A stretch of 14,400 bases of DNA, from NCBI GenBank assembly GCA_024275095.1, contig JAJRZV010000026.1, forward strand, positions 1-14,400, read 5' to 3'. The position numbers and the translations under genes are program-made. The notes under the pieces were generated by a model that saw only the letters and a list, made by a program, of their open reading frames with translations, was not told where the DNA came from and did not search any database. Of the stretch, positions 1-9,447 are shown one piece after another; position 1 is the first letter of the stretch, and the number at the start of each line of letters is the position of its first letter. This DNA comes from a bacterium (GTDB lineage Bacteria; JAJRZV01).

Positions 1-1170
1 AAGCCTTGCAACCGTGTAAAAACCAATGATGTGAAGGACATCATGAGGGAACTTAGCTGCGATGAGATGTTGAAGTGCAAGGGCTAACTTCTTCGCTGCC
101 ACAAATTTTCCTCCCCACGACATGGACCACGAAAGATCGATCAAAAGCGCCGTGGCACAGGATTTCCGTGCTTCCTCCATAAAAACCCGCCAGTCTTCTT
201 TTCTCAGCTCAAGCTGGTTATTCCTGAGAGGTCGTTTCAAAAGCGCCTCCTTCAATGTACCCACCACATCCAGGTGAAAACCGGACTGTTCCGCATAAGG
301 AATTGATACCTCATATTCCACTTCCCCCCGCCCTTTTTTAATACCGGGGTGCTGGCCAGCTCCTCCTTCTCGAAGGCGGGAGTATATCTCTGCCAGTGCC
401 TTTTCACCGATCCGTCGTATTCCTCGTGGTGTAAGTTTGAGACCAAAAGACTCCATTGTCACATATCCAGCGCTTTGAAGAGCTTCCACTGCCTGACGAA
501 ACATTCGAAGGCTCATAGCTCCCTTCACCCCGAGAGCCTGGGCAAGAACCTCCATGTCAACATCGTCCAGCCGACCCCCCTGAAGGGCTTTTTCAGTTCT
601 ATCAATGCGATCCATCAGGTCAGCCAGTTCTACAGCCTTTTCAAAGTTTACCTCCTGGGTCCCGGAAAACCGTTCTCCCCAGCGGTCAATCAGCTTTTGT
701 ACTTTCTTCAGGTTCTCTTTTACCTCGTTGTAAAGTTGTTCGAACTGCTCGCCGGCTTTCGAATTCTCAAATTGGTGAGAGAAAAGGGCCTCTATCAGTT
801 GAGGCAACGGTTGTTTCAAAAGGTCTAAAAAATTCTTCAACTGAGCTTTCCGTGCTTCATTTTCCAGCAAAGCTTTCCATTCCCGTTCCACAATCTCCTG
901 CAGCCGCTTCTTTAACTCATCCAGTGCATTTTCAATCTGATATTGATTGAGAATTTTTTTTCTATAGTGCTTTACCATGCGCACTATATCCTGAAGACTG
1001 CGCACCGGCAGCAATCTTACCCCTACAATGCCACCAACCTGAAGCATATCAAGCAGGGCATGTGTTACATCGCTGTATTCTATAATGCGCTCCATGAGCT
1101 GATGAAAGAGATGCTCTGCATCAACAGGAGTTTCTTCCTGAACTTCTTTTTTGAGATACCGGAATTTCAA
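1..1170 (-). CDS. VWA-domain protein, partner of the upstream AAA+ ATPase (3' end beyond window)
   Basis: The reading frame is open for 390 codons to the left edge, so the C-terminus is missing. The start is inferred as TTG 1170-1168, which overlaps the TGA stop of the ATPase gene (1169-1167). The product then begins MKFRYLKKEV, and the first in-frame ATG (1095) would remove 25 residues. Residues about 20-185 are charged and mostly helical. Residues about 200-260 look like a winged-helix fold, with LTPRGIRRIGEKAL at 246-259. A von Willebrand factor A domain begins near 338: LLIDLSWSMS carries the metal-site DxSxS motif (D345, S347, S349). The rest of the MIDAS lies outside the window. AAA+/VWA gene pairs (MoxR/VWA, ChlI/ChlD, RavA/ViaA) work as remodelling or chelatase machines, where the VWA protein recruits the target. 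Here the target is unknown. The VWA call is firm; the function is not. Confidence 0.85.
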   Translation of the reverse strand, partial: MKFRYLKKEVQEETPVDAEHLFHQLMERIIEYSDVTHALLDMLQVGGIVGVRLLPVRSLQDIVRMVKHYRKKILNQYQIENALDELKKRLQEIVEREWKALLENEARKAQLKNFLDLLKQPLPQLIEALFSHQFENSKAGEQFEQLYNEVKENLKKVQKLIDRWGERFSGTQEVNFEKAVELADLMDRIDRTEKALQGGRLDDVDMEVLAQALGVKGAMSLRMFRQAVEALQSAGYVTMESFGLKLTPRGIRRIGEKALAEIYSRLREGGAGQHPGIKKGRGEVEYEVSIPYAEQSGFHLDVVGTLKEALLKRPLRNNQLELRKEDWRVFMEEARKSCATALLIDLSWSMSWGGKFVAAKKLALALQHLIAAKFPHDVLHIIGFYTVARL

Positions 1171-5052: not shown

Positions 5053-6270
5053 TTAACTCTCCAGCAAATACAAGTAAAGGTCCAGGTGATCACCCAGCAG
5101 TCGGGTGATGAGGAATCGCTGGCGCACTCTTTCCACAGCATTGCGGCTGATATGCTCCCGCTCCTCCGGGTCCTTGAGAAGCCTTACAATCTTCTCAACA
5201 AAGGCATCATTGTCATGAGGGTCAACGAGATAACCGCTTTCTCCATCCTCAATCTGAAGGGGTATACCTCCTACCCGGGACGCAACAACAGGTGTACCTT
5301 TCCACATGGCCTCGGTCACCGTCAATCCAAAACCCTCTCTGATGGACTTTTGAATGATCACAGTTGCTGTACGCTGGAGAGAATTGACAAAAATATTGTT
5401 TTGCGCGGGATTTACCACGAGAATCACGTCGCTGTTGGCAGCGAGTTCCCCGGCACGTCTGCGCACCCGTTCCAAAACACTCCAGCCTTCGGGGTCATCC
5501 TCCGCCATGTTGCCGCACAAGACAAGACGACAGTCTACCTCCTCCCTCACCCGGCGAAAAATTTCGAGCACTCCTTCGGGGTCCTTCCATTTATCAAATC
5601 GGGAAATCTGGGCAATAATGGGTTTATCGAGGGGGATGTTAAATTTTTTCATGTACTTGTGGATCGTCTTTTCGGATAAGGGTTCATTTTTGGTGGAGAG
5701 GGGGTCTATGGCTGGAAAAAACACCCGCTGTTCCACAGGCAAATCTTCTTTAAGATAGGTTTCACTGGACACCACCATCACATCGTAGCGGAGAATAAAG
5801 CCCTTCAGGTAGGACCACAGATCGGAATTGGGATCGCTGAGGTCCACATGACACCGCCACACCCAGGGCTGAGCTTTTTTGTAAAAACGCACCATGGGAA
5901 GCGGCTGAGGGTCATGAACAACAACAACGTCGTGATCAATCTTACAGTACGAGGCAAACTCTTCATTCGTCTGCACATATAAGCGCTTCTTCATTTCTGT
6001 CAGGTTGATTGCTCCACCCTGCAGGGCGTTGTGAAATTTCTTTGTCACATTAAAAAAGTCCGGAGTGCCATGAAGAATCCGCCAATCCGCATCCAGTCCC
6101 ACACTGTTCATGAGCGGCACAAGAGATGTGAGCATTTCGGCAACGCCACCGCCAAAAAAGGTCGAATTGATGTGAAGCACCCGGGCTCCGTACAGGCGCC
6201 GCACGCGTTTGTACAGCCGAGACAGGACGTCGTCTCCGACAATCTCTCTGTAATCCTCAAGAGTCCTCAT
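5053..6270 (-). CDS. treT: Trehalose synthase, glycosyltransferring (TreT), GT4 family
   Basis: The product is 405 residues. TreT reversibly joins glucose from a nucleotide sugar (ADP- or UDP-glucose) to free glucose to give trehalose in the cytoplasm. The whole chain follows the archaeal/thermophile TreT pattern as I recall it: LEDYREIVGD at 4-13, NSTFFGGGVAEM at 35-46 (acceptor-side glycine loop), HDPQPLP at 119-125, WRCHVDLS at 138-145, SRFDKWKD at 223-230 (phosphate-binding R224 and K229), and the GT4 donor motif REGFGLTVTE at 311-320 with the E312-x7-E320 pair. The start ATG 6270 follows purine-rich AAGGGAGGGGG and a second AGAAGGGG. It overlaps the TGA that would end an extended otsAB frame. 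The neighbouring OtsAB supports a trehalose role. A different disaccharide donor or acceptor cannot be excluded from sequence alone. Confidence 0.88.
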   Translation of the reverse strand: MRTLEDYREIVGDDVLSRLYKRVRRLYGARVLHINSTFFGGGVAEMLTSLVPLMNSVGLDADWRILHGTPDFFNVTKKFHNALQGGAINLTEMKKRLYVQTNEEFASYCKIDHDVVVVHDPQPLPMVRFYKKAQPWVWRCHVDLSDPNSDLWSYLKGFILRYDVMVVSSETYLKEDLPVEQRVFFPAIDPLSTKNEPLSEKTIHKYMKKFNIPLDKPIIAQISRFDKWKDPEGVLEIFRRVREEVDCRLVLCGNMAEDDPEGWSVLERVRRRAGELAANSDVILVVNPAQNNIFVNSLQRTATVIIQKSIREGFGLTVTEAMWKGTPVVASRVGGIPLQIEDGESGYLVDPHDNDAFVEKIVRLLKDPEEREHISRNAVERVRQRFLITRLLGDHLDLYLYLLES

Positions 6271-6353
6271 CCCCTTCTGCCCCCTCCCTTCTTAATGAAT
6301 TGCGCTATTATACTTCGAATATATCTCCAGTCGTCTACATGATACCGCGCTCT
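6267..6353 (-). other. Detached C-terminal coding segment of otsAB after an in-frame TAA
   Basis: The gap between the otsAB stop (6356-6354) and treT is an open continuation of the otsAB frame, 28 codons long. It begins RARYHVDDWRYIRSII and ends in TGA 6269-6267, which overlaps the treT ATG as ATGA. Trehalose-phosphatases normally end with an A-x-Y-x-V segment and a short helix at just this point, and the annotated protein lacks it. The last eight codons double as the treT ribosome-binding region. No separate start codon or Shine-Dalgarno sequence would make this a gene of its own. Confidence 0.6.
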
Positions 6354-8477
6354 TTAAAACTCGTAACCAACTTTTACCGAATATGCATCTTCCGGCATCG
6401 CCTCAAACATGTCTTCATCCGTCCAGTCATCACCGGCACAGAAAATAAACTCCCACCGGTCCTTCTCCAGCCAGTGTCTCGCAGCTCGTCCCTTGTTGAC
6501 ACCCGTATGCTTTACCTCGATAACCTTATTTCCCTCGAGCACAGATACGTCCAGATTGGCCGTCAGGTGAAGAAGCGTATCTTTCAGCTCTCCTGCACGC
6601 GCTATGGCCATTTCCGCCTCCACAGCTCGGTAATGCCACGCAAGCGAATATTCCTTCTCTTCCAGAAAAGAGCCTGGTGTTCTATCCACGTACATTTCCA
6701 TAATGGGCCGAATTTCCTCTTTCCAGCGAGTGTCTGCTGTTTCAGTGCGCCGCCACCGTCCACCCCTGTGTTTTATAAACGCTCCGTGCTCTGCTACGAG
6801 ATTCAATTTCAACGAACCAAACCATCTGTCGAGCGTTTGTTTATCGCGTCCCGAAATAATCACCACATCATTCGCCCTGTCTTCTTGCAAGCCCTTTAAC
6901 AAAGCATACAGTTCTTCATCAGGTGCAGCTTCTTCCGGCATCCGGGCAAAGGGGGTGAGTGTTCCGTCGTAATCAAGAAAAATCAATCGCCGAGATGCTT
7001 TCCTGTATTCAGAAACCATGCGGGATCTCACGCGTGGGTGCAATATTCGACCGCGCAGCTCCTGCTGAATGGTGCGCACCTGTTCAAGCCGATCCATAAA
7101 ATCTCTTACCCATCGAGTAATATCGTAACGACGGATACGATCCTGCATACTGCGGTTTCTCTTTACCTGTTCTTTCTCAGGCATCGTCAGTGCCGCGTAT
7201 ATCGCCTCGGCCATTTCGTGAACATTATTGGGATTCACAACAATTGCTTCACTGAGCTCCCTCGCAGCGCCGGCCATTTCGCTCAATATAAGTACACCCC
7301 TTCCATCCCGCCGGGCAGAGACGTACTCCTTTGCAATAAGATTCATTCCGTCCCTGAGAGGTGTAATCAGTGCAACATCACACACGCCATAGAGAGCTGT
7401 GAGGTTATCAAAGGGAAGATAGCGATACATGTACCACACCGGCATCCATCCAATGGTTGCGTATTTGCCGTTTATTCGTCCAACCAGTTCATCAATCTGG
7501 CGTTTGAGAACCCGGTACTGTTCCACACCGATGCGAGAAGGAACAACCACGAGAATGAGAGTCACCTCTCCTCGAAAATCAGGGTTTCGCTCTAAAAAGA
7601 AGTCAAAGGCCTCCAGGCGATTGGGGATGCCTTTCGAATAATCAAGCCGATCAACTGATAAAATGAGCCTCCTGGGCCCCACGCGGGTGCGTATTGTCCG
7701 CATTTCGTGCTGAACCCCGGGTTGGGAGGTGGCATGGTGATATTTCTCAAAATCAATACTCATTGGAAACGCATCGGCCCGCATAATGTGACTGCCATCA
7801 TTAATCTGCCCAAGAGAATTTTCCAGACCAAGTATTCGCCTGATGCTGTCAAGGAAATGAAACACGTAATCGTAAATATGAAACCCTACGAGATCTGCTC
7901 CGAGAAGACCCTTTAACAGTTCAGCTCTCCAGGGCAACAGGCGGAAAATTTCATACGAAGGAAAGGGAATGTGAAGAAAAAAACCTATGCGCGCTCGAGG
8001 AAGTTTCTCCCGTAAAAGTGAAGGCAGGAGCATTAAATGATAATCATGGACCCAGATAATATCATCTTCGTCTGCAAGCTCCAGTACAGCATCTGCATAA
8101 AGCTGATTTACATTTTTATAGGATTCCCACATGCGGTCATCATAAACAGTGTAGGAAGGAAAATAGTGGAACAAAGGCCAGATGGTTCGGTTGCAGAAAC
8201 CATGATAAAAATTATCAATATCTGCCTGTCGCAAAAATATGGGATGATATCCAGCACAGAGAAGTTTCTCCTCCAGCTCTTCCTTGGCTTCACGCGCACG
8301 TTCTGAAGACATGCCTGCCCAACCCAGCCATACGTATCGCCCTTTATCAAACACGGAAGCAAGCCCGGTAGCCACGCCACCGGCGCTGGGTTGAATTCTG
8401 TATTCACCAGAACGTCTTACAATGTTCACAGGAAGACGATTTGAAACAAGTATCAGCTTTCCTTTTTGTTTTTGCAT
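6354..8477 (-). CDS. otsAB: Bifunctional trehalose-6-phosphate synthase/phosphatase (OtsA-OtsB fusion), possibly truncated at the C-terminus
   Basis: Counted from ATG 8477 the product is 707 residues. The N-terminal GT20 synthase (about 1-480) makes trehalose 6-phosphate from UDP-glucose and glucose 6-phosphate. It shows SNRLPV (12-17), the GG loop (33-34), WVHDYHLMLLP (142-152), HIPFPS (169-174), VDRLDYSKGI (275-284; R277 and K282 contact phosphates) and TPLRDGMNLIAKEYV (372-386). The C-terminal HAD phosphatase (about 490-707) removes the phosphate. It shows DYDGT (502-506; nucleophile D502, acid D504), SGR (542-544) and GDDWTDEDMF (682-691). I chose ATG 8477 because SNRLPV then lies where OtsA proteins carry it. 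A TTG at 8525, with AGGAAAGGA before it, would add 16 residues and overlap the FecR gene. The protein ends at VKVGYEF, about 20-28 residues early for a phosphatase. The missing segment is encoded in frame just after the TAA. Confidence 0.9.
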   Translation of the reverse strand: MQKQKGKLILVSNRLPVNIVRRSGEYRIQPSAGGVATGLASVFDKGRYVWLGWAGMSSERAREAKEELEEKLLCAGYHPIFLRQADIDNFYHGFCNRTIWPLFHYFPSYTVYDDRMWESYKNVNQLYADAVLELADEDDIIWVHDYHLMLLPSLLREKLPRARIGFFLHIPFPSYEIFRLLPWRAELLKGLLGADLVGFHIYDYVFHFLDSIRRILGLENSLGQINDGSHIMRADAFPMSIDFEKYHHATSQPGVQHEMRTIRTRVGPRRLILSVDRLDYSKGIPNRLEAFDFFLERNPDFRGEVTLILVVVPSRIGVEQYRVLKRQIDELVGRINGKYATIGWMPVWYMYRYLPFDNLTALYGVCDVALITPLRDGMNLIAKEYVSARRDGRGVLILSEMAGAARELSEAIVVNPNNVHEMAEAIYAALTMPEKEQVKRNRSMQDRIRRYDITRWVRDFMDRLEQVRTIQQELRGRILHPRVRSRMVSEYRKASRRLIFLDYDGTLTPFARMPEEAAPDEELYALLKGLQEDRANDVVIISGRDKQTLDRWFGSLKLNLVAEHGAFIKHRGGRWRRTETADTRWKEEIRPIMEMYVDRTPGSFLEEKEYSLAWHYRAVEAEMAIARAGELKDTLLHLTANLDVSVLEGNKVIEVKHTGVNKGRAARHWLEKDRWEFIFCAGDDWTDEDMFEAMPEDAYSVKVGYEF

Positions 8478-8484
8478 AAAGGAT

Positions 8485-9447
8485 TTATTTGAGCTCTTCT
8501 TCGAATCTCCGAAATCGCTCTTCAATCCTTTCCTGTTTCCGTCGCAGCTTTTCCTCTATCGCTTTCTTTTTCTTTTGAAACCGCTTTTCGACCCGTCTCA
8601 TCACTCTTTCAAAACGCGCGTTCACTTCACGAAATCTATTCTCAACCTCCTCCAGTGTAACCCCTCTTTTTCTGTACACCTGGAAAGAATGAGAAAGCAT
8701 TTCCTGGAGTTCTACAGAATTGACCAGATCCTCTCCAACTTTCTCCGGACGATCTTCTTCTCCCATATCTTCTACAAACGATTGGTACTTCTTCAACCTC
8801 TGTTGCATTACTCTGTTAATAGCCCTGAGCAGTTCCTGTTGTTTCTTTTCAAAAGCAAGTTTCTTTTGCAGGGCCCACCTCTCATAGTCAAAAGGAATTG
8901 CAAGAGACTGAACCCTTATCCCTTCCTCAATATCCACAATGGCTCTCTTTCCTCCTTCCACTTCCATTTCCGCACCATTAAGGGCAACTCTTCCCTCTTC
9001 AACTTCCACAACCGTGGAACCATCTGCTGCCACGATGACACTGAAATCTGTGCCCCGTACTCCCATAACAGAAGACGGGGACGTAACACTCACAACCCGA
9101 TCACGTGTAATCTTTTTTATCACAGCCTTTATCCGACCAATGGAGACTTTAATAAATGAAAACACCTTTGAGATTTCGGAGGAGGGCGCTATTTCCTTTT
9201 CTTCTATCTTCAATTCAGAAGATTCAAACACTGTCACAGAAGAGCCATCGCTGTAGGTAATTACCGTCCGGGACTTCTTCCCTGTTTGAACAACGTCTCC
9301 ACTGAACAGTACTGCACCCGGAGTTGCTCTTACAACAGGACCCACACCAGCGCGAACAATCTTTACTTCCCCCACCACGGATTTGACGGAAGCAAGCTGA
9401 CTCTGACTGGATGCTATCAATACAGCTGCTATTAAACACTTCACCAT
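8485..9447 (-). CDS. Secreted FecR-domain protein with a highly charged C-terminal helix
   Basis: The product is 320 residues. Residues 1-18 look like a signal peptide (short basic start, hydrophobic core LIAAVLIA) without a lipobox, so export to the periplasm or cell surface is likely. A FecR-type beta domain fills about 20-180, including MGVRGTDFSV at 128-137, the conserved core of the family. Residues about 190-320 are helical. The last 55 or so (264-320) are almost all Glu, Lys, Arg and Gln with regular Phe and Ile, suggesting a coiled coil or single alpha helix. Classical FecR is an iron-signal anti-sigma regulator with a membrane segment. This one has neither a sigma factor neighbour nor a later transmembrane segment, so a structural or ligand-binding role is as likely. 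ATG 9447 follows the dnaN stop by two bases, with GAGG at the end of dnaN as Shine-Dalgarno sequence. Confidence 0.78.
   Translation of the reverse strand: MVKCLIAAVLIASSQSQLASVKSVVGEVKIVRAGVGPVVRATPGAVLFSGDVVQTGKKSRTVITYSDGSSVTVFESSELKIEEKEIAPSSEISKVFSFIKVSIGRIKAVIKKITRDRVVSVTSPSSVMGVRGTDFSVIVAADGSTVVEVEEGRVALNGAEMEVEGGKRAIVDIEEGIRVQSLAIPFDYERWALQKKLAFEKKQQELLRAINRVMQQRLKKYQSFVEDMGEEDRPEKVGEDLVNSVELQEMLSHSFQVYRKRGVTLEEVENRFREVNARFERVMRRVEKRFQKKKKAIEEKLRRKQERIEERFRRFEEELK

Follow-up and report, generated by a model that had tools for sequence, protein, structure and literature searches.

Contig JAJRZV010000026.1 of the bacterial draft assembly GCA_024275095.1 carries, in the 14,400-nucleotide stretch analysed here (the window), an otsAB gene interrupted by a TAA codon, past which the same reading frame runs on up to the next gene, treT. 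The question raised by this locus is whether the encoded enzyme is really cut short, by a recent mutation or as its normal form, whether the stop is read through by the cell, or whether one base of the assembly is wrong.

The otsAB locus

The window's set of minus-strand genes includes dnaA, dnaN, a FecR-domain gene, otsAB and treT, together with further genes. Between positions 5053 and 12144 the trehalose genes come after dnaA, dnaN and the FecR-domain gene, all on the same strand, and they sit near a probable replication origin. The features discussed in the text are collected in Table 1.

The otsAB frame, as assembled, ends with DAYSVKVGYEF immediately before the TAA; after it, the frame reads RARYHVDDWRYIRSIIAQFIKKGGGRRG up to a TGA, which overlaps the ATG of treT (6268-6270) in an ATGA junction. 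This arrangement, i.e. the cut at VKVGYEF, the 28 codons that follow and the junction with treT, had been described in the first-pass annotation, and re-reading of the window found it exact. The listed TTG start falls within the FecR-domain gene that precedes otsAB; a likelier start is the ATG at 8475-8477, located just beyond the end of that gene. In 22 related loci, spread over many phyla, treT starts at most about 135 bases from the end of the OtsAB match; the two trehalose routes are often encoded adjacently, as these OtsAB-TreT loci illustrate.

The product has the organization of an OtsAB fusion, with a GT20 domain followed by a trehalose-phosphatase domain, and scores above the curated cut-off (634) of the NCBIfam model PRK14501. 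The truncated protein reaches 1022.5 bits and is aligned up to model position 702 of 729; when the stop is read through, the alignment covers positions 2-726 of 729 and the score rises to 1038 bits, a gain of 15.5 bits.

Table 1. Position of the features discussed in the text. Plain numbers refer to the window or, where indicated, to the OtsAB protein; the other entries give a sequence label and a position.
Feature	Position	Strand	Remarks
treT (trehalose synthase, GT4)	5053-6270	-	start overlaps the TGA of the otsAB frame as ATGA
In-frame continuation of otsAB	6267-6353	-	28 codons, then TGA 6267-6269; profile score and structure
In-frame TAA	6354-6356	-	most probably a wrong assembly base; Ser or Thr in homologues
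otsAB ORF as assembled	6354-8525	-	T6P synthase and truncated trehalose-phosphatase domain; 723 codons from TTG 8525
GT20 domain	OtsAB protein 23-481		domain match
Trehalose_PPase domain	OtsAB protein 516-713		domain match
FecR-domain gene	8485-9447	-	directly upstream of otsAB
rplC, in-frame TAA	L104:754		ribosomal protein L3 model matched 1-202/202 across the stop
prfB, in-frame TAA	L115:8711		RF2 model matched 14-352/353 across the stop
dnaE, in-frame TAA	L115:1991	-	sole DnaE in whole-genome search
trmD, in-frame TAA	L123:3214		sole TrmD in whole-genome search
accD, in-frame stop(s)	L218:3224	-	only full-score AccD in whole-genome search
Best DnaE match of another genome, G057 (single contig, 5.0 Mb)	G057:C1:2465201-2468251		one in-frame TAG

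The sequence beyond the stop

OtsAB homologues were gathered from 59 genomes and 61 further loci; after removal of near-duplicates, 60 tails were aligned. All comparison genomes belong to other phyla, and the window's genome is the sole representative of its own phylum in the search set. In the column corresponding to the stop the homologues carry either serine (39) or threonine (21). A change of TAA to AAA had been proposed as one way of restoring the full-length enzyme; this option is unsupported, because lysine occupies the column in none of the 60 sequences. The following columns contain Ala (58 tails), Arg or Lys (50), Tyr or Phe (56), a variable position, Leu or Val and then a hydrophobic helix. 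On a profile of these tails the window's tail obtains 19.7 bits, and none of 200 shuffled versions exceeds 2.0; the homologues themselves, when each is left out in turn, span 3.2 to 36.7 bits, a range that includes it. It therefore scores like an intact tail and has not decayed. By sequence comparison, the 28 codons are shown to be homologous to the C-terminus of the family. Codon usage and coding score of the tail are low, poorer than those of the gene body, so that codon bias alone would have missed what homology detects.

A structural model of the phosphatase domain was obtained with AlphaFold2, reading the TAA as Ser; the stop position is residue 225. Confidence is high (mean pLDDT 94.5, about 96-98 over residues 221-240), and a strand (229-231) and a helix (234-245) are predicted past the stop. 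Solved trehalose-phosphatases superpose on the model up to residues 247-250, i.e. 22-25 residues further on: 5dxi with Z 33.3 and rmsd 1.5 over 249 aligned residues, 5dx9 with Z 32.9 and rmsd 1.3 over 250, and 1u02 with Z 26.3 and rmsd 3.1 over 225. Enzymes of this family are built around a parallel sheet of six strands (PMC4081830), and in the model the tail is the last strand and helix of this HAD core. The complete C-terminal strand and helix are encoded in frame after the TAA and absent from the ORF as assembled, which therefore lacks part of the phosphatase fold. The earlier suggestion that the tail matches the ending and the final helix of trehalose-phosphatases is thus borne out by residue frequencies, profile score, predicted secondary structure and superposition alike.

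All the catalytic elements lie upstream of the stop: the DYDGT and SGR motifs, the lysine of NKG and GDDxTDED. HAD motifs I-IV are present: D19, D21, S59, K179, D200 and D201, which do not vary among 42 sequences, are found in the window as well. This distribution would suit a shorter protein as the normal form, with a phosphatase complete at VKVGYEF. Such a form is hardly credible in view of the match of the tail to the family and of the extent of the solved structures, and is contradicted by the alignment, which had been recommended as a check: homologues continue beyond VKVGYEF, and none in the set is truncated at the stop column. Neither observation that could have spoken for a natural end, namely relatives stopping at this place with unrelated sequence afterwards or a domain already complete, was made; what follows the stop is related sequence. 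The truncated phosphatase, if made, would be expected to be inactive.

In-frame stops in the rest of the assembly

The survey of in-frame stops covered 1.77 of the 2.45 Mb of the assembly. Candidates came from a coding-potential scan for genes split by a single stop and from tblastn searches with ORFs of E. coli K-12 regions; they were read through with X at the stop, scanned with Pfam or NCBIfam, and considered confirmed when one domain or protein family spans the stop. Uncertain candidates (those in L167, L193, L130, L126, L148, L134, L185 and others) were excluded from the count, and those in L196, L214 and L116, as well as the purA neighbour in L204, were dropped, having been revealed by Pfam to be two adjacent genes.

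In this way 22 further in-frame stops were confirmed in conserved genes (13 TAA, 6 TAG and 3 TGA). The genes affected encode SufB, a methyltransferase, an aldehyde ferredoxin oxidoreductase, a PLD-domain protein, a malic enzyme, the small subunit of a NiFe hydrogenase, two M50 peptidases, a type II secretion ATPase, a radical SAM protein, a biotin carboxylase, an MTS-type methyltransferase, a mandelate racemase-like enzyme, a DUF362 protein, ProB, a thiolase, an M16 peptidase and the products of dnaE, trmD, accD, rplC and prfB. Two of these, the biotin carboxylase and the mandelate racemase-like enzyme, are known enzymes of two domains, and there the stop falls between the domains or at the edge of one. 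In rplC, prfB, dnaE, trmD and accD, conserved sequence flanks the in-frame TAA on both sides. The RF2 gene, prfB, is itself one of the essential genes interrupted by TAA.

No cell replicates without DnaE, and a cell in which TAA truly terminated dnaE, trmD, accD, rplC and prfB would not live. Most of the in-frame stops in the assembly must therefore be base errors, since genes of this kind are indispensable. The comparison with E. coli gave about 5 stops in 63,107 codons, from which perhaps 50 to 60 affected genes may be extrapolated genome-wide. The same comparison contained one clear frameshift against five stops, a ratio unlike that of ordinary pseudogene decay, which would bring many frameshifts. 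The one clear indel apparently splits a ZraR-like sigma-54 regulator, in L202.

Other genomes were used as controls. Among 58,346 aligned codons of their OtsAB homologues no internal stop was found; three stops occur, all beyond the ends of the genes proper. DnaE was searched in 97 other genomes and, among the matches listed, the best match of one genome (G057) holds a stop, a second and uninterrupted DnaE copy being located elsewhere in that genome. Such stops are therefore not unique to the window's assembly. Scanning viral contigs for the pattern around the otsAB stop site gave no match, and the literature search yielded no paper dealing directly with such in-frame stops in draft genomes.

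Origin of the otsAB stop

Given the many stops of the same kind in the assembly, the simplest reading is that the otsAB stop belongs among them. The preferred reading, to which a probability of about 0.8 is assigned, is that the TAA is a wrong base in the draft assembly and that the real gene is full-length through the 28 codons. The stop would share its origin with the others, as the same defect recurs in indispensable genes; the true otsAB very likely runs on to the TGA overlapping treT, and its product would be a normal OtsAB enzyme, full-length and bifunctional. At five sites it is clear which residue was lost, otsAB being counted on the assumption that it was Ser, and all five changes belong to the G:C to T:A class; SufB, DnaE and AccD are ambiguous. 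Ex vivo oxidative damage has been described as giving a G:C to T:A bias (PMC12390751). Oxidised guanine could be guessed at as the chemistry from these five sites, or else low coverage, which might have produced an enrichment of stops near contig ends; no clear enrichment was observed (P about 0.05 at 2,250 bases).

A real and recent nonsense mutation would leave an OtsAB protein devoid of its last strand and helix, with the phosphatase probably crippled, and trehalose would come from TreT or not be made. One substitution in a Ser codon is enough, the undecayed tail fits a recent event, and the adjoining treT would make the loss bearable; the genome yielded no second trehalose-phosphatase, and most bacteria can do without the trehalose route. 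The interruption of indispensable genes in the same assembly makes a special cause for otsAB unneeded, and the set of homologues offers no other case of truncation at this stop. A mutation is thus regarded as unlikely here, while real pseudogenes may account for a few of the 22 interrupted genes, and the otsAB stop could be such a case.

Readthrough of the TAA, either programmed or due to a suppressor tRNA or an altered code, would yield a fraction of full-length enzyme. It agrees with a tail conserved at the protein level and would also explain the in-frame TAA codons of several essential genes, but most of the evidence makes it very improbable. Reassignment would involve one codon, one consistent residue and a cognate tRNA; here TAA, TAG and TGA all occur in frame, the residue expected at TAA varies (Ser or Thr in otsAB, Ser in TrmD, Glu in the hydrogenase), and a search covering 72% of the genome found no suppressor tRNA. 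The genome has two class-I release factors, and TAA terminates 287 of 749 long ORFs (38%), a normal terminal use. The stimulating mRNA structure past the stop that marks programmed readthrough was not detected 3' of the otsAB TAA (fold z-score -0.03), and back-up stops after TAA are not in excess (22.3% in frame, 20.4% off frame). That all the stops are real, and the bacterium survives because near-cognate readthrough of all three stop codons is pervasive, is scarcely believable; were it true, the phylum would translate its genes in an extraordinary way.

The first-pass annotation had left nonsense mutation, sequencing error and readthrough open, and had stated that the sequence does not show which. 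Evidence on the cause comes from the remainder of the genome: the recurrence of all three stop types in conserved and essential genes favours a base error, leaves nonsense mutation in the minority and disfavours readthrough. The E. coli-based estimate, of about one false stop per 10,000 codons in the window's genome, calls for caution. With false stops this frequent, truncations, gene losses and pseudogenes in this assembly, that of otsAB among them, need checking on the reads before any biological meaning is given to them.

Comparison with known systems places the locus as follows. Systems of readthrough or reassignment share with it an open, conserved frame past the stop, and differ from it in that three stop codons are involved here, with differing residues at TAA, normal termination at TAA and no suppressor tRNA found. 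Compared with OtsAB fusions of the PRK14501 type, the window encodes the full-length pair of GT20 and trehalose-phosphatase domains in one frame once the stop is read through, and has treT closely downstream as in the 22 related loci; it differs by the in-frame TAA which, as assembled, cuts off the last 28 codons. The G:C to T:A bias described for ex vivo oxidative damage is suggested in the window's assembly by five sites only. Common ground with base errors of draft assemblies lies in the stops of all three kinds scattered through essential as well as conserved genes, in the undecayed sequence that follows them, and in the small number of frameshifts.
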